A stretch of DNA of 38,549 nt from contig NZ_ML762424.1 of assembly GCF_009498735.1 (NCBI RefSeq), forward strand, positions 419,824 to 458,372, given 5' to 3'. Source of the stretch: Gracilibacillus oryzae. Its GTDB lineage: Bacteria > Bacillota > Bacilli > Bacillales > Amphibacillaceae. The notes beneath the pieces were generated by a model. That model was not told where the DNA came from. It did not search any database and was given only the letters and a program-made list of their open reading frames with translations. Below are positions 9,853 to 31,231 of this stretch, one piece after another. The translations under genes and the position numbers were made by a program. Position 1 is the first letter of the stretch. Each line of letters starts with the position of its first letter.

Positions 9853-10968
9853 TTAAATAATTGCTTGTTGTGCCCTGTCAACCGCAAAGCTTCTGGTATA
9901 TTTCTCAGCTGCTTTTCCTTCGATTAAATCTGCCATCATGATGCCTGTCATAGGTGATAATAAAATACCATTTCGATAATGGCCCGCAGCAACATAAAGT
10001 CCCTGCTTACCTGGTATTTCACCTATGTATGGGAAGCCGTCCTCTGTTTGCGGGCGGATTCCTGTCCAGAAATTTTCCATCTGCGCATAGGCAATGGCAG
10101 GAAGAATCTGCTTCGCTCTTGTGAGCAAATATTCCACACTCTTCACCCGAACAACTGGATCTGTTATACCCGGAAACGAAGTAGCACCAATAATGATCCG
10201 CCCATCTTGTTTGGGAACTAAGTAACATCCATCAGAAAAGATCGTACTCCCTATTAATGGTTGATCTGGCCTGATAGAAACACACTCCCCTTTTACAGGA
10301 GTTATCGCCATATCATCAGGTAACCAGTTCGTCATATCTTTTCCTGTTGCCATAACAAGCTTGTCACAGTAAAAAGAGCCGTTACCCGTTTTTACACCTT
10401 TCAGTCCATTCTCTTGTTCGATTATTTCATTTACTTGTGTATGTTCCAGCAGCACAGCATGATGATTTTGGGCTGCCCTTGCAAAAGCTGAGGTCAGCAT
10501 TGGGGCAGATACATGCCCATCATCTGGCAAAAATAAACCCGCCAGGAAATCAGGCGCCAATTTCCTTTCTTTTAATAAAACCGCTTTTTCTGTCAAGAGA
10601 ATAGCAGTTTCCCCAGCATTCTCCTGAAATTTAGCCATTTTCTTTAATTGATTTAATTGCTCTTGTGTATAAGCTAATTTCAGCATCCCTTTTTGAACAA
10701 GTTCTATGTCAATCCCGCTGGCTTCCTTTAACTCCCTTGCCAGTTCCGGAAAAAGCGCTCGGCTTTCTCTTGCAAAATCAAATAATACACTATCTGACGA
10801 GAATTCCGCTTGTGCACCAAGCATCCCTGCAGCTGCACATGAAGCACCATTTCCTATTGTGCCACTCTCAATTAGTAAAACATGGTATCCCCTTTTGCTT
10901 AATTGGTATGCAATGGAACAACCAATCACACCGCCGCCAACAACAATTTGATCAAACTGTTTTCTCAT
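9853..10968 (-). CDS. thiO: Glycine oxidase ThiO
   Basis: FAD-dependent amine oxidase that converts glycine to the imine (dehydroglycine) used by ThiG. The N-terminus has the dinucleotide-binding motif VVGGGVIGCSIAYQLSKRG, and the C-terminal region has the D-amino-acid-oxidase-type signature FWTGIRPQTEDGFPYIG and YVAAGHYRNGILLSP. I start it at ATG 10968 (MRKQFDQI) because AGGAGG lies six bases upstream, giving 371 residues, close to the B. subtilis enzyme; the open frame runs 16 codons further up. Its first codons overlap the end of tenI. Confidence 0.93.
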   Translation of the reverse strand: MRKQFDQIVVGGGVIGCSIAYQLSKRGYHVLLIESGTIGNGASCAAAGMLGAQAEFSSDSVLFDFARESRALFPELARELKEASGIDIELVQKGMLKLAYTQEQLNQLKKMAKFQENAGETAILLTEKAVLLKERKLAPDFLAGLFLPDDGHVSAPMLTSAFARAAQNHHAVLLEHTQVNEIIEQENGLKGVKTGNGSFYCDKLVMATGKDMTNWLPDDMAITPVKGECVSIRPDQPLIGSTIFSDGCYLVPKQDGRIIIGATSFPGITDPVVRVKSVEYLLTRAKQILPAIAYAQMENFWTGIRPQTEDGFPYIGEIPGKQGLYVAAGHYRNGILLSPMTGIMMADLIEGKAAEKYTRSFAVDRAQQAII

Positions 10969-11578
10969 GCTGTTCCTCCTTCCAATGATTGAATCTGTCA
11001 TAATAAGCCTTCGCAACCTGGATTGGTTCAGCCGCCTCCCAAACTGAAGAGATCATGGCTACTCCATTTGCTCCTGTGTCTAGGACTTCTTTTACTTGAT
11101 CTGGCTTAATCCCACCAACGCCGATAACAGGGATGGAAGTTGTTTGCGCAACATCCTGTAAGTTCTTCAATCCTCTAGGGTTCACACCTTGTTTTGAATT
11201 ACTGTGATAAATATGACCATATAAAACAAAATCAGCTCCATCTGCTTCTGCCTTTCTTGCTTCTGCTGCTGAATGAACAGATTTTCCTATTTTTATATCA
11301 GGGAAGCGTTCTCTTACAAGATTTACCGGCGGACTGTGATAAGCAAGCTGAACACCGGCACAGTCTCTCATCACCGCGAGATCCACTCGATCATTGACGA
11401 TTATTTTAGAAAGTGGAATACCTGTCTCCCATATGATATCAAGTACTTCTAAAAGCTCAGCAGCTGACTTTGTCTTTTCTCTCACATGAATATAATCAAA
11501 ATAATGATGAAAACTTCCTAATTGTTCAAGATCTGCTTTTGTTATCTTTCCGTTTGTAATTAGATGAATCCCCTTCAT
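10952..11578 (-). CDS. tenI: Thiazole tautomerase TenI (ThiE-like fold)
   Basis: TIM-barrel protein of the ThiE/TenI group; TenI aromatises the thiazole carboxylate tautomer made by ThiG. It retains the TenI-like DYIHVREKTKSA, IGKSVHSAAEA, the catalytic-type histidine in FVLYGHIYHS and the phosphate loop IPVIGVGGI. The thiamine-phosphate-synthase fingerprint for pyrimidine binding (ThiE-type QxxD...R and TxTK) is not evident, so TenI is preferred over ThiE. Start ATG 11578 follows AGGGTG by six bases. It is the first gene of the operon, after the TPP riboswitch and terminator. No tenA gene precedes it here, unlike B. subtilis. Confidence 0.88.
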   Translation of the reverse strand: MKGIHLITNGKITKADLEQLGSFHHYFDYIHVREKTKSAAELLEVLDIIWETGIPLSKIIVNDRVDLAVMRDCAGVQLAYHSPPVNLVRERFPDIKIGKSVHSAAEARKAEADGADFVLYGHIYHSNSKQGVNPRGLKNLQDVAQTTSIPVIGVGGIKPDQVKEVLDTGANGVAMISSVWEAAEPIQVAKAYYDRFNHWKEEQHEKTV

Positions 11579-11618
11579 ACAAAACACCCTATCTTTCCGT
11601 AAGTAGTTAAGGAATGCA

Positions 11619-11657: not shown

Positions 11658-11680
11658 TAATAATGAATAAATAACGTGCT

Positions 11681-11770
11681 CCACCACTTCCCTCCGCTGG
11701 TGTTAACCAGATCAGGTTCAAAGGGTCCGAAATTTCTTCGTCTCAGCCAATACTCTGGCTCCCCTAGTGT
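11681..11770 (-). ncRNA. TPP (THI-box) riboswitch aptamer
   Basis: On the minus strand the conserved aptamer blocks appear in order: ACTAGGGGAGCC, GGCTGAGA, ACCCTTTGAACCTGATCTGG (the near-invariant thi-box core), TTAACACCAGCGGAGGGAAG. CACTA at the 5' end pairs with TGGTG at the 3' end to close helix P1. It stands immediately upstream of tenI-thiO-thiS-thiG-thiF with an intervening terminator, so it is the switch for that operon. Confidence 0.97.
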
Positions 11771-11912
11771 TCAATCAACTATTTAGTTTTGATAGTTACA
11801 GAATAACACAAAATGGTAACTAATCCAATATTCATTTTTAATTTGTGTTTATTTTTTGAATTAGAGGGAAGATATATAGTGGAACATAAATGATGAAAGG
11901 ATGTTAGGACAT

Positions 11913-12420: not shown

Positions 12421-12463
12421 CCCTTATTATGGTATAATGATGGGAAAAGAGGAGGGAAAATAC

Positions 12464-13633
12464 ATGCTTCAAACATTTTTTCAGGAAGTGGATAATTATT
12501 ATGACGAGATGGTAGAAATGCGGAGACATTTACACCAGCACCCCGAGCTTTCCTTCCAAGAGTATAAAACAGCATCGTTCATTCAAGATTTTTATCATAA
12601 ATTAGATATACCCTTCCAACCAAATGTTGGCGGCAATGGGGTGGTTGCCAGACTCAATGGTGCTCAATCAGGCAAGACGATCGCACTAAGAGCTGATTTT
12701 GATGCACTTCCGATTGAAGATGCAAAACAAGTCCCTTATCGCTCAACAAATTCCGGCGTGATGCATGCCTGTGCTCATGATGGCCATACTGCAACATTAC
12801 TAACCGTAGCGAAAATTTTACATAAATACAGAGACCAGCTTCCTGGGAACATTACTTTTATTCATCAGCATGCAGAAGAGGTTGCACCAGGCGGAGCCCA
12901 GCCGATAATTTCTGATGGGGTGCTGAAAGGTGTTGACTATGTTTACGGAACACACCTTTGGACAGGCACACCATATGGGATTGTTCAAACAGCTCCAGGT
13001 AACTTTATGGCTGCTGCAGATAAATTTACGATCACCATCAAAGGTAGCGGCGGGCATGGGGGCATGCCACATCAAACGATAGACCCGATCGTCATTGGAT
13101 CACAGTTGGTAACTAATTTACAGCAAATTGTCAGTCGAAAATTAGATCCATTGGCAACTGCCGTACTTTCTATCGGTAAATTTCATGCAGGCAATGCCTA
13201 TAATGTGATTCCTGATATTGCTGTAATTGAAGGTACTGTAAGGACATTTGATCAGGAACTACAGCAGTTGATTATGGCAGAAATGGAAAAGATAATAAAA
13301 GGAACATGCCACAGCTATCAAGCAGAATTTATTTTCGATTATCAAAAAGGTTATCGTCCTGTCGTTAACCATAAGGAACATGCACAATTAATTATCGAAT
13401 CGGCACAGCAAGTAGATGAGGTGGAAAAAGCGGAGATAGTTGCCCCAAGTATGACAGGCGAAGATTTCGCTTATTATCTGGAAGAAAGACCTGGTGCCTT
13501 TTTTTTCACAGGAGCCCAGATAAAAGATCAGTTTGTCCCACACCATCATCCAATGTTTGACTTTGACGAAAGAGCAATGAAGATTGCTGCCAAAACATTG
13601 ATTAGTGCAGTGATGAAGGCAAACCAAATATAG
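12464..13633 (+). CDS. yhaA: M20D amidohydrolase, YhaA-like
   Basis: Zinc-dependent aminoacylase/carboxypeptidase-type amidohydrolase that would cleave N-acyl groups from amino acids or related amides; the substrate is unknown. The metal and catalytic motifs of the family are in place: RRHLHQHPELSFQE (residues 20-33), LRADFDALPI, HACAHDGHTA, HQHAEEVAPGG, and GGHGGMPHQTIDP in the lid domain, with MTGEDFAYYLE near the C-terminus. Start ATG 12464 has GAGGAGG eight bases upstream; a longer frame starts inside the promoter region. About 389 residues, cytoplasmic. Proximity to ecsAB matches B. subtilis yhaA. The symbol is given by position and family. Confidence 0.85.
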   Translation: MLQTFFQEVDNYYDEMVEMRRHLHQHPELSFQEYKTASFIQDFYHKLDIPFQPNVGGNGVVARLNGAQSGKTIALRADFDALPIEDAKQVPYRSTNSGVMHACAHDGHTATLLTVAKILHKYRDQLPGNITFIHQHAEEVAPGGAQPIISDGVLKGVDYVYGTHLWTGTPYGIVQTAPGNFMAAADKFTITIKGSGGHGGMPHQTIDPIVIGSQLVTNLQQIVSRKLDPLATAVLSIGKFHAGNAYNVIPDIAVIEGTVRTFDQELQQLIMAEMEKIIKGTCHSYQAEFIFDYQKGYRPVVNHKEHAQLIIESAQQVDEVEKAEIVAPSMTGEDFAYYLEERPGAFFFTGAQIKDQFVPHHHPMFDFDERAMKIAAKTLISAVMKANQI

Positions 13634-13654: not shown

Positions 13655-13965
13655 TTTCCTATCAAATCTCTTCTCCCCATCGGGTGATTTGATAGGTAAA
13701 GAGCTTTTTCCTATCATATCTCTTTCTTCCATCGATGGTTTTAATAGGTAAAAACCTTCTTCCTATCATATCTCTTCTTCCCATTAGGCGGTTTGATAGG
13801 TAAAGAGCTTTTTCCTATCATATCTCTTTCTTCCATCGACTGTTTTAATAGGTAAAGACCTTCTTCCTATCATATCTCTTCTCCCCATCGGGCGTTTTGA
13901 TAGGTAAAGAGCTGCTTCCTATCAAATGAGCGGCTTTACCTAACAGATCTGACAGGTAAAACTGC
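13655..13965. repeat. Tandem array of about six 52-bp palindromic repeats
   Basis: Units start with TTCCTATCA at 13655, 13708, 13760, 13812, 13864 and 13916 (spacing 53, 52, 52, 52, 52). Each unit has inverted arms; in unit 1 CCTATCAAATC (13657-13667) pairs perfectly with GATTTGATAGG (13686-13696). Units alternate: 1, 3 and 5 carry GATAGGTAAAGAGCT (13691, 13795, 13899), while 2 and 4 carry AATAGGTAAA followed by AACCT or GACCT (13743, 13847), so the true period is 104. Unit 6 is diverged and has a shorter dyad TTTACCT/AGGTAAA. No coding frame explains it. It lies between the convergent amidohydrolase and ecsB genes. Nothing recognisable occurs in the remaining bases to about 14025. Confidence 0.9.
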
Positions 13966-14025: not shown

Positions 14026-14056
14026 CCAAAAAAAGAACCCAGTCTGGACTGGGTTT
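14026..14056 (-). terminator. Terminator of the ecsAB operon
   Basis: AACCCAGT (14036-14043) pairs with ACTGGGTT (14048-14055) around a 4-base loop and is followed on the minus strand by C and a run of T. It lies about 45 bases beyond the ecsB stop. Confidence 0.8.
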
Positions 14057-14100: not shown

Positions 14101-15318
14101 TCATCTACTTTGTATCTTTTGATTAACATAACCAGGTATGATCAGCCAGACAAAGACAATGGAAGCTGCCGCCATTAATCCGCCAGTTACATAACTTTCC
14201 ACAACAAATAGGAAGATGGCAAACAACAACATTTGCACAAACATCAGTTGTTGAATCCACTTAATAAATGACTGTTTACGGACTTTATCTGCAACAGGAT
14301 ACAAGTCCAGCCAGATAATGATGGCATGATGTTTCCAAAGTGGAAGCAACTGAATAAAAGTCATATAGCTGAACAAAATAGCAAAAATAAGTTTCATCCA
14401 CATATTAGGAACAAAGAAAATAATTAATCCGCCAACCACCAGCAAGCGAGTATAAATACCAAAATATTCGCCGCTTCTTGCACTAGTTAAGCGATATAAA
14501 TAGGTATAACTATTTGATTGTTCAAATGGGACAGACTTTGTTAAAAGCCTTGCAAAAAGAGCCCGTTTCTTAACAGTAGTCTCCAAATGCGGAACATCTG
14601 TAAACATATTTGCCAACCGGTAAAATGACCGCATCCGTAAATAGTCACGTTCAATCATCAGTTCCCAATTAAGTGCTTTTTGTTTGTTAAAAAGATATCG
14701 GTTATAAATGAGTAAACCAATTCCCATTACTGTAATAATGCCGACCATCAGCATTTCTTGTTTGATAAAAAAATAGATTAACGCACTAATTATCAAATAG
14801 CGCACAATAATGTCCATTGTCCTCATTGACTGCTCACGGACTTTCAACATCCACCAGTTCGCAATCATACTCCACCCTTTTACAATCAAAAGAACAAGTA
14901 ACAGCAACCCATATGTGTTTCCTTGATACTGTGTTAAATATAATGGAGCTAAAGCAGCATAGATAAATAAGAATAAATAGATCTGGGTAACATAGCTGTA
15001 TATTAAAGTCCGCCTAAAATAACCTTTCAGCTGATGTTCAGCAGGAATCAGAAAAACAATATCCGCTCTTTTTAGCATTGTTTGGATTGGACTGTATGTT
15101 GTTACAGAACCTAACAGAATAGCGATAATAAAGGCTGTCGGAAACTCCTCTGGAAGTTCTTCTAACCATTGCTGGTAATAATAGGCTAGAGCAGACAGGA
15201 TAAAGAACACGGCAATCGCAAGGTGCCCTGTTAAAATATAGCGTAAATAACGATTTATTTCTTTTACATGTCCTTTCAGACGTTCGGTAAATAAGGTATT
15301 TGCCTTAAGCATGAGCAT
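14101..15318 (-). CDS. ecsB: EcsB, ABC transporter membrane subunit
   Basis: Polytopic membrane partner of EcsA. The 405-residue protein shows about six to eight hydrophobic segments, clustered at about residues 30-75, 105-145, 165-210, 290-325 and 350-395, with the basic, soluble loop (RDYLRMRSFYRLANMF) typical of EcsB in the middle. Length is close to B. subtilis EcsB. In B. subtilis loss of the Ecs transporter affects competence, secretion and intramembrane proteolysis by RasP; the transported substrate is not settled. The start at ATG 15318 follows AAAGGA by five bases inside the 3' end of ecsA and overlaps it by 14 bases, so translation is probably coupled. ecsC does not follow; the palindromic array does. 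Confidence 0.88.
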   Translation of the reverse strand: MLMLKANTLFTERLKGHVKEINRYLRYILTGHLAIAVFFILSALAYYYQQWLEELPEEFPTAFIIAILLGSVTTYSPIQTMLKRADIVFLIPAEHQLKGYFRRTLIYSYVTQIYLFLFIYAALAPLYLTQYQGNTYGLLLLVLLIVKGWSMIANWWMLKVREQSMRTMDIIVRYLIISALIYFFIKQEMLMVGIITVMGIGLLIYNRYLFNKQKALNWELMIERDYLRMRSFYRLANMFTDVPHLETTVKKRALFARLLTKSVPFEQSNSYTYLYRLTSARSGEYFGIYTRLLVVGGLIIFFVPNMWMKLIFAILFSYMTFIQLLPLWKHHAIIIWLDLYPVADKVRKQSFIKWIQQLMFVQMLLFAIFLFVVESYVTGGLMAAASIVFVWLIIPGYVNQKIQSR

Positions 15319-30238: not shown

Positions 30239-31231
30239 TTATGCCTGCAAATAAAATTCCTCGCGTGAAACCTGCCACTGTAGCGGCTCCTTCTTTACAT
30301 ACCGTTCTAATTCCTGCAGCATATAATGCCCCATTCTTGCACATTCCTTTCCATGGCTGCCTGCTAAATGCGGGGTTAAGATAACATTGGGCATAAGGTA
30401 TAGAGGTGATTCAGGAGCTGGCGGTTCAGGATCTGTGACATCTAATACCGCTGTAATATCCTCGCGCTGTTTTAACACACTGATCATTTCTTCTTCTTTA
30501 ACAATTGCTCCACGTGCCGTATTGATAAAGCTGGCACCTTGTTTCATCTTAGCAAAATGACTGGCTGTAATCATTCCTTTTGTTTCATCCAGCAGAGGAG
30601 CATGCACTGATACAATGTCTGATTGTTCAAAGATCTCGTCAAGACTGCACAACTTCACTCCCAGCCTTTCTGCTTCTTCCTGACTGGCAAAAGGATCATA
30701 AGCGATTACATTCAGATCGAAGTGTTTTAATAACTCACAGACCCCTTTTCCAATTGTACTTAAAGAGATAACTCCAACAGTACTTCCGAAACCGCCAACA
30801 ATAGCAGAAGGCTTATGAGGAAAAGTTTTCGTACGCTCTATGTCTCGAACGAACTGCCAGCCATTCTTGAGACAAAACACAATTTGCGAGATAGTAAATT
30901 CTATCACTGGAACAGCATTTGCTTTTACTGCATTTGTAATGATAATCTCTCTATCCCACATGTGATCTGTTGCCATATTTTTTATAGAACCTGCTCCATA
31001 AAATACTGCTTTTAAATTCGGTGCATGCTCAAGAAACTCAGCATCTAACCTGGGACCACCCCAACCTGATATTAATATATCGATATCTTTAAGTAAATGG
31101 TAGTTATTCTGTAATGTGTCCTGTGATAACTGCCTTTCATCTATATCTACTAACTTCTTAATTTCTTTTCTGATTTGTAATGGATAAATCAATTCGAATG
31201 AATCATCGTTCATAATATATATCGCTTTCAT
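30239..31231 (-). CDS. D-isomer-specific 2-hydroxyacid dehydrogenase family protein
   Basis: Probable cytoplasmic NAD(P)-dependent 2-hydroxyacid dehydrogenase or reductase; the substrate is unknown. Catalytic positions are visible: Arg in FINTARGAIV, Glu in DVTDPEPPAPESPL and His in VILTPHLAGSHG. The cofactor loop reads VGVISLSTIGKGV where GxGxxG is usual, so the first two glycines are replaced by serine. 330 residues with normal domain order. GGAGGAG precedes the ATG and a good promoter lies at 31293-31322. Single-gene unit between ectD and yheA; I see no pathway link with either. Confidence 0.8.
   Translation of the reverse strand: MKAIYIMNDDSFELIYPLQIRKEIKKLVDIDERQLSQDTLQNNYHLLKDIDILISGWGGPRLDAEFLEHAPNLKAVFYGAGSIKNMATDHMWDREIIITNAVKANAVPVIEFTISQIVFCLKNGWQFVRDIERTKTFPHKPSAIVGGFGSTVGVISLSTIGKGVCELLKHFDLNVIAYDPFASQEEAERLGVKLCSLDEIFEQSDIVSVHAPLLDETKGMITASHFAKMKQGASFINTARGAIVKEEEMISVLKQREDITAVLDVTDPEPPAPESPLYLMPNVILTPHLAGSHGKECARMGHYMLQELERYVKKEPLQWQVSREEFYLQA

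Follow-up and report, generated by a model that had tools for sequence, protein, structure and literature searches.

What does an array of alternating palindromes represent when it sits in the gap between two convergent genes? The question is raised by a locus in the window, the whole 38,549-nt stretch of Gracilibacillus oryzae DNA analysed here, where a preliminary description from the letters of the sequence had noted about six head-to-tail units of 52-53 bp, with a 104-bp super-period, between an amidohydrolase gene and ecsB.

The array between the peptidase gene and ecsB

The repeat and both of its periods are borne out (Table 1). The hexamer CCTATC opens each of the six units at five spacings of exactly 52, and TRF finds a period of 52 over 13656-13924 (5.2 copies) together with a higher-scoring period of 104 (2.6 copies, 90% matches). 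The unit count needs amendment: five units are complete, a sixth is partial and degenerate, and the unit length is 52. Over 13656-13925, identity is 90% at a lag of 104 and 78% at a lag of 52, against 39% at the best other lag between 20 and 139, so the periodicity is far above chance. A unit comprises a palindrome of 39 nt and a linker of 13 nt, and the perfect 11-bp arm pair that had been reported for unit 1 is present (CCTATCAAATC/GATTTGATAGG). As had also been noticed, units 1, 3 and 5 are more like one another (88-90% identity) than they are like units 2 and 4 (94% between these two; 75-81% between sets), and GATAGGTAAAGAGCT recurs exactly, at 13691, 13795 and 13899 (spacings 104 and 104). 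Because units 1/3/5 and 2/4 form two kinds, the most recent growth was by a dimer, which agrees with the duplication originally proposed. The array contains no coding frame, as claimed: the ORF list has no ORF of at least 80 aa across it. The dismissal of CRISPR likewise stands; these arrays resemble CRISPR in their regular tandem layout of conserved and variable parts, but within any one array the variable parts resemble one another, and a genome carries many arrays.

Table 1. Positions of the array, its parts and the neighbouring features in the window.
Feature	Position	Strand	Basis
M20-family peptidase/amidohydrolase gene, lagging-strand	12437-13633	+	ORF; PF01546, E 2.3e-38
Core array: five 52-bp units at 13658, 13710, 13762, 13814 and 13866, and start of the sixth at 13918	13658-13924	-	TRF periods 52 and 104, spacing, unit identities
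Unit 1 palindrome, 39 nt (CCTATCAAATC, 17 nt, GATTTGATAGG), then 13-nt linker (13697-13709)	13658-13696		sequence
Example of bipartite element in leading orientation (GATATG, N23, TAAAAC)	13842-13876	-	sequence
Degenerate sixth unit, ecsB side	13918-13960		sequence; TRF 156-period row ending at 13960
Terminator-like stem-loop and T run, between ecsB and the array	14036-14055	-	1 found vs shuffle mean 0.5
ecsB, on the leading strand and convergent with the peptidase gene	14101-15318	-	ORF; PF05975, E 7.6e-109

The strand assigned to the core array is the leading-strand, purine-rich orientation; for the window contig the leading strand was inferred from the skew and coding bias of C1:1-400000, a segment that ends 20 kb before the window. 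The stop codon of the peptidase gene lies 24 bp ahead of the first CCTATC. On the other side, the terminator-like site suggests that ecsB transcripts probably end ahead of the array. Four units also contain a promoter-like TTGATA/TTAATA-N17-TATCAT arrangement (13689-13873, + strand), which we take as a by-product of this arm family and which may possibly be a set of weak promoters.

Constant length and variable sequence among related arrays

Used as a query against the 4.63 Mb (53 contigs) of its own genome, the window array recovered 17 arrays with 26 matching places, the units being nearly all 52 long and a few 51. Each array has a core sequence of its own, which is similar from unit to unit. 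The arm pattern CTATCA-N25-TGATAG occurs 82 times in this genome, against once for its reversed control, which upholds the earlier suggestion of a genome-wide repeat family. The search of relatives that had accompanied that suggestion, proposed for TTTACCTATC and run here with the arm pattern, gave 0-3 matches in each of 158 other genomes of the family; the arm sequence is thus private to the species. A tandem CCTATC pattern had no match in the contig collection searched, from which near relatives of the window may be missing. With so few matches per genome, arm sequence was given up as a route to relatives, and it was comparison of the period that exposed the class.

Among intergenic TRF arrays of period at least 30 in 800 kb of the genome (contigs C1, C3 and C5), 26 of 30 have period 52, the remaining periods being 40, 82, 147 and 159. 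These counts disregard ORFs of less than 450 bp inside arrays when calling an array intergenic, and the scripted scans used a TRF score of 40, as against 50 in the window run. The period-52 arrays fall into several unrelated-looking sequence families, each array being homogeneous, with super-periods of 104 and 156 in the TRF output. Length, rather than sequence, is what the arrays share genome-wide. A run of N inside one of them (L022, G000:C3, ~198.86-198.95 kb) marks either an assembly gap or masked sequence, and the draft may therefore understate copy numbers. Repeats outside the 52-bp kind include two intergenic two-copy repeats, of 159 bp (G000:C1:286558-286882) and 147 bp (G000:C3:124136-124456), and a 62/83-bp repeat (GCAAGAAGAGAGCGGGAAGTC) inside an ORF at G000:C3:137588-137972, with a similar repeat at a contig end (G000:C5:76-374).

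This pattern places the window array, as a real and exact member, in a known and unexplained class, the constant-length 52-nt satellites of Firmicutes. According to the available portion of the account by Subirana and Messeguer (PMC8161180; an earlier survey by the same authors, available likewise in part, is PMC6749651), these are tandem repeats of Bacillus and other Firmicutes that lack sequence conservation. Their period is 52 (51-53), copies mostly number 4-10, the sequence is variable, a genome holds several families and few tandem repeats of other kinds, and species-specific short sequences occur in the repeat together with their reverse. The likeness extends to length, families, sequence and lack of coding: the window array has 5.2 copies of a unit within 52 ± 1 nt, where the class calls for at least four; its genome carries several families of the same length and few other tandem repeats (26 of 30); and its sequence is species-specific (82 matches vs 0-3) and non-coding (no ORF of at least 80 aa). 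The shared length, the orientation described below and this prior description had been missed by the preliminary description, which was otherwise sound on the family, on dimer growth, on CRISPR and in listing protein binding as an option.

Sampling of the genus returned arrays of period 50-53 at uneven densities: samples of 400 kb contained 7 in G027, 5 in G030 and 1 in G032, and samples of 200 kb contained 7 in G023 and none in G033. The closest relative as judged by EcsB, G037, has no match to the motif described below and no 52-bp array in 80 kb, so any function would be dispensable or quickly lost. Named relatives of EcsB are 33-47% identical to it. Other intergenic periods were 294, 42 and 116 in G030 and 42/63 in G027. 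A slightly shorter variant, with period 50-51 and TGTCCGTAAG...CTTATGGACA arms, is found at G030:C13:64308 and 386573 and at G027:C4:297236. Beyond the genus, TRF assigned a period of 52 to all 10 loci examined, with 5.9 to 20.2 copies; one array there (L219, in G393) is overlapped by an ORF of at least 600 bp. A different palindrome family (CTATCAGTAGGG...CCCTACTGATAG) is dispersed over several contigs of G141 and G142, two genomes of another genus, with three hits each to the N25 pattern. Within the sampled set, arrays are commoner in convergent gaps (16 of 46, vs 150 of 921 background gaps) and rarer in divergent ones (3 of 46 vs 198 of 921).

A recurrent half-site and its orientation along replication

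Although the arrays differ in sequence, many share a bipartite element. We compared 47 consensus rows, which are the TRF rows from five genomes after removal of positional near-duplicates (one G023 array is represented twice, 7137/7150); merging of rows gives the 46-array set used for gap context and purine content, and the window array is in neither set. On the leading strand, GWTWTG-N22/23-CAAAA(C/G) is perfect (12/12) in 21 of the 47 rows, and 3 more score 11/12; a score of 12 occurs in none of 940 shuffles and in 1 of 47 rows on the opposite strand, where 22 rows score 10-11, as a partial palindrome must. The other 23 rows score 8-10, within the range of the shuffles (7-11, mostly 8-9), and include 9 of 26 rows from the own genome and 7 of 7 from G027. 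The half-site is therefore far from universal among the arrays. Palindromy of the consensus unit is also uneven, exceeding shuffles at z>2 in just 17 of 47 rows and being weak in many families. In the window array, the 23/17 spacing is kept in the four complete bipartite elements. Its left half-sites are GATATG (four) and GATTTG (one); the right half-sites, from the ecsB side, are CAAAAC, TAAAAC, CAAACC, TAAAAC and CAAATC, so that one of five is CAAAAC and the remaining four are one-base variants at the correct spacing.

Since the half-site was read from the same 47 rows, the count within them is partly circular, and a whole-genome search serves as the independent test. The pattern CAAAAS-N17/18-GWTWTG-N22/23-CAAAAS, which permits periods of 51-53, matched 112 times in the own genome, 180 in G032, 61 in G023, 20 in G030, 5 in G035, 3 in G027 and 2 in G031, making 7 of 17 genomes of the genus; the other 10 have none. 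Among 142 other genomes of the family, 8 have a single match each, and the reversed control gave 2 matches over all 159. Only one array had been known in G032 before these 180 matches. The period is 52 in 52 of the 61 G023 matches and in 91 of the 100 matches listed for G032. The inner and outer gaps are mostly 23+17 in the own genome and mostly 22+18 in G023 and G032, both arrangements summing to a 52-bp period. Five places with a single match in the latter two genomes were inspected with TRF: four are arrays (11.6 kb and 3.495 Mb in G032; 0.624 and 1.926 Mb in G023), and the fifth (4.259 Mb in G023) has no tandem repeat of period at least 20. Of 397 genomes searched across the order, 43 contain the pattern. 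At least two matches share one place in 14 of these 43, which represent 7 families; the scattered matches in the other 29 may be chance. The reversed control gave one match in each of 9 genomes.

For the sampled contigs, the leading strand was set by skew and coding bias. Of 46 arrays of period 50-53, 44 are purine-rich on that strand, against 56.5% of 2976 background 52-bp windows; the exceptions are at C3:110013 in the own genome, where 25 of 26 arrays follow the rule, and at 31028 in G027. Transcription is weakened as the source of this orientation by three kinds of context. In convergent gaps, 15 of 16 arrays are purine-rich on the leading strand, compared with 52% of the background; two arrays between lagging co-directional genes (as called by simple ORF picks) still follow replication, with purine contents of 0.62 and 0.66; and so do three arrays in divergent gaps (0.54, 0.55 and 0.66), two of them weakly. 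A passive compositional skew looks too weak to be the cause, given mean leading-strand purine contents of 0.524 in the background and 0.623 in the arrays, though part of the polarity may stem from it.

The strand of the motif, which is not a measure independent of purine skew, was compared with replichores in complete genomes, where the origin was placed at dnaA with backing from the strands of rRNA genes. Motif strand and replichore agree at 20 of the 21 places in G023, or at 19 of 20 when the non-array place at 4.259 Mb is left out, and at 24 of 24 among the places listed for G032. The G023 exception, at 1.2976 Mb, is a real 52-bp array of 6.7 copies, and a local inversion there is possible; the 5-kb stretch around it (L232, G023:C1:1295000-1300000) has genes mostly on the minus strand. 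Among the matches listed in G032, which cover 100 of its 180 units, 61 are on the minus and 39 on the plus strand, all consistent with the replichore. The remaining 80, which by position order should lie beyond 3.82 Mb, comprise 79 plus units and one minus unit that counts against the polarity. In G393, a member of another family with dnaA at 1.1 kb of 4.81 Mb, the 6 listed places all follow the replichore (6 plus units at 0.35-0.77 Mb; minus units, 4 of 7 listed, at 2.74-3.76 Mb); by purine content, 4 of 6 arrays agree there, one is neutral and one contrary. Agreement extends to the G434 array (minus strand, 2.56 Mb; dnaA at 1.1 kb) and to the one match in G270. Such a predominant alignment with replication, seen in this bacterium and in some of its relatives, suggests that the arrays contribute to chromosome organisation.

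Two genomes of the genus also lack matches around the point opposite dnaA. In G023, there is no motif match between 2.34 and 4.26 Mb, the largest gap being 1.91 of 4.51 Mb (42%, P 0.00025), and the gap widens when the non-array place is left out; in G032, no match falls between 0.012 and 1.557 Mb among the places listed (1.55 of 4.80 Mb, 32%, P 0.0026). Both voids contain the point opposite dnaA, and both P values are too small because the arrays are related. Motif-free TRF scans found no tandem repeat of period at least 20 in the 80 kb opposite dnaA in G023 and none of period at least 30 in the corresponding 60 kb of G032; within 0-0.4 Mb of G032, the array at 11.6 kb is the sole one. As a general rule, a terminus void was dropped, since arrays lie near that point in another family: a 12.9-copy 52-bp array 0.16 Mb away in G434 and an array 0.33 Mb away in G393.

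Candidate explanations of the arrays

The reading that we tentatively favour is of a helically phased docking array for a putative DNA-binding protein. Five B-DNA turns make up one period, and the half-sites are oriented alternately; one dimer per unit on the same face of the helix is thus the simplest arrangement. Each 52-bp unit would dock a dimeric protein; five turns (5 x 10.4) would set successive units on one DNA face, where neighbouring proteins could touch; and together the arrays would take part in organising the chromosome arms after replication. Both growth and homogeneity of the arrays would follow from slippage, or from unequal exchange involving one or two units. A broader version, which we regard as rather unlikely, would make the 52-nt satellites of Bacillales the sites of a hitherto unrecognised system that organises the chromosome, in which a conserved putative protein would read TTTTG/CAAAA half-sites in phased arrays pointing along replication and so mark replicated arms for compaction, segregation or division timing, sparing the terminus region in this genus. 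We infer the protein, its conservation and its role.

Some known systems resemble the arrays in part. The Noc and SlmA sites, as treated in the available portion of PMC4726725, are likewise palindromic, spread over the chromosome arms and underrepresented in Ter, as the motif places are in G023 and G032; unlike the present arrays, they are single short sites and not tandem arrays of fixed period, and a depletion of this type does not extend to G434 and G393, where arrays come to within 0.16 and 0.33 Mb, respectively, of the position opposite dnaA. The class itself had already been described; what the present analysis adds is the half-site, which recurs between families, the replication polarity and, in two genomes of the genus, the terminus void. 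In its available portion, PMC8161180 uses none of the terms orientation, leading strand, terminus, intergenic and palindrom-, and we found no description of these three features in the literature on the class, its 2020 founding paper left aside. Literature searches on 52-nt or 52-bp repeats returned, on this class, only PMC8161180. In the same portion of their paper, the discoverers suggest a nucleoid protein or a small RNA as the function and leave the question open. The half-site, the fixed spacing and the polarity turn 'constant length, no sequence' into something testable: a DNA bait with correct spacing could be used to seek the putative protein, changes of period could serve as a test of helical phasing, and the map of sites predicts effects on the organisation of the nucleoid.

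The strongest rival, which on balance we think somewhat unlikely, is replication-linked duplication without function. A selfish or neutral satellite would arise from a process, such as slippage, paired nicks with fill-in, or a repair ruler, that makes 52-bp duplications near palindromes, and length and orientation would then be the marks of the maker. Homogeneity within arrays, the 104/156 super-periods and the polarity with replication are all compatible with such an origin, as are the fast turnover implied by the lack of any motif match, and of any 52-bp array in 80 kb, in the closest relative, the patchiness of the motif (7 of 17 genomes of the genus) and a void that is not general. Indeed, the failure of the void in another family lowers our confidence in the docking and organising readings and raises it in this one. 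Against it, the recurrence of the half-site across 7 families of the order suggests selection on sequence, and the enrichment of arrays in convergent gaps and their depletion from divergent ones count against it as well. Were the arrays made in this way, their fixed 52-bp length would indicate an unknown molecular ruler.

The preliminary description had also considered an RNA-stabilising or terminating role, and arrays that yield 3' UTR or small RNA hairpins with a stabilising, terminating or sponge function would suit the enrichment in convergent gaps and the transcription of 52-nt repeats in B. coagulans, reported in the available portion of PMC8625621. Folding of both strands, which had been proposed as a check, gave a good fold, but did so on both strands alike (z = -6.6 for the minus strand and -5.9 for the plus strand), as any inverted repeat would. 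In 73 distinct units with a gap of 23, arm pairs 7-11 are complementary at 70%, vs 16-21% when slid (43% vs 23-30% in the six units with a gap of 22), and the mismatches in 50 distinct units from leading-oriented stretches show no preference for G-U, with 11 G.T and 12 A.C over pairs 7-11 and 31 and 33 over pairs 7-17, so that neither RNA strand is favoured. The terminator-like site separates ecsB from the window array, the lagging co-directional and divergent-gap arrays (two and three) still follow replication, and the exact period has no obvious RNA reason. Arm pairing and the terminator-like site weakly indicate DNA over RNA, and we consider a structured RNA improbable. Scanned against Rfam at gathering scores, the window gives a single match, which lies outside the array: a TPP riboswitch (RF00059, 80 bits) at 11672-11775 on the minus strand, the strand that also carries ORFs 10952-11587 and 9853-11016.

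Mobile palindromes of the REP/REPIN kind, moved by a Y1 (RAYT) transposase on the lagging-strand template, would share with the arrays an extragenic palindromic nature, at times in arrays (as the available portions of the literature on REP, BIME and REPIN describe), and replication polarity, and one Y1 gene exists in the own genome (C24:14556). Unlike REP elements, however, the arrays have a fixed period and a core private to each array; no array lies in the 3.3 kb around that Y1 gene; G026 and G036 have 15 and 10 Y1 matches yet no motif match; and the complete, motif-rich G023 has 21 motif places and no PF01797 match, on which ground RAYT/REPIN was rejected. A mobile REP system is very unlikely.

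Equally hard to sustain is the idea that the arrays, instead of docking a protein in phase, are clusters of KOPS/SRS or Chi that mark orientation for DNA translocases or for recombination: this would fit the polarity and the presence of AGCGG, which we take to be the B. subtilis Chi, in 9 of 47 rows vs 1.4 expected, but no tested motif is common to most arrays, GAGAAGGG, presumably the SRS, being in 0 of 47 rows and GAAGAAG in 2 of 47.

Read on the leading strand, the consensus units from the five genomes have a further compositional feature: GGAGG occurs in none (1.6 expected) and AGGAG in 15 of 47, vs 2.5 expected.
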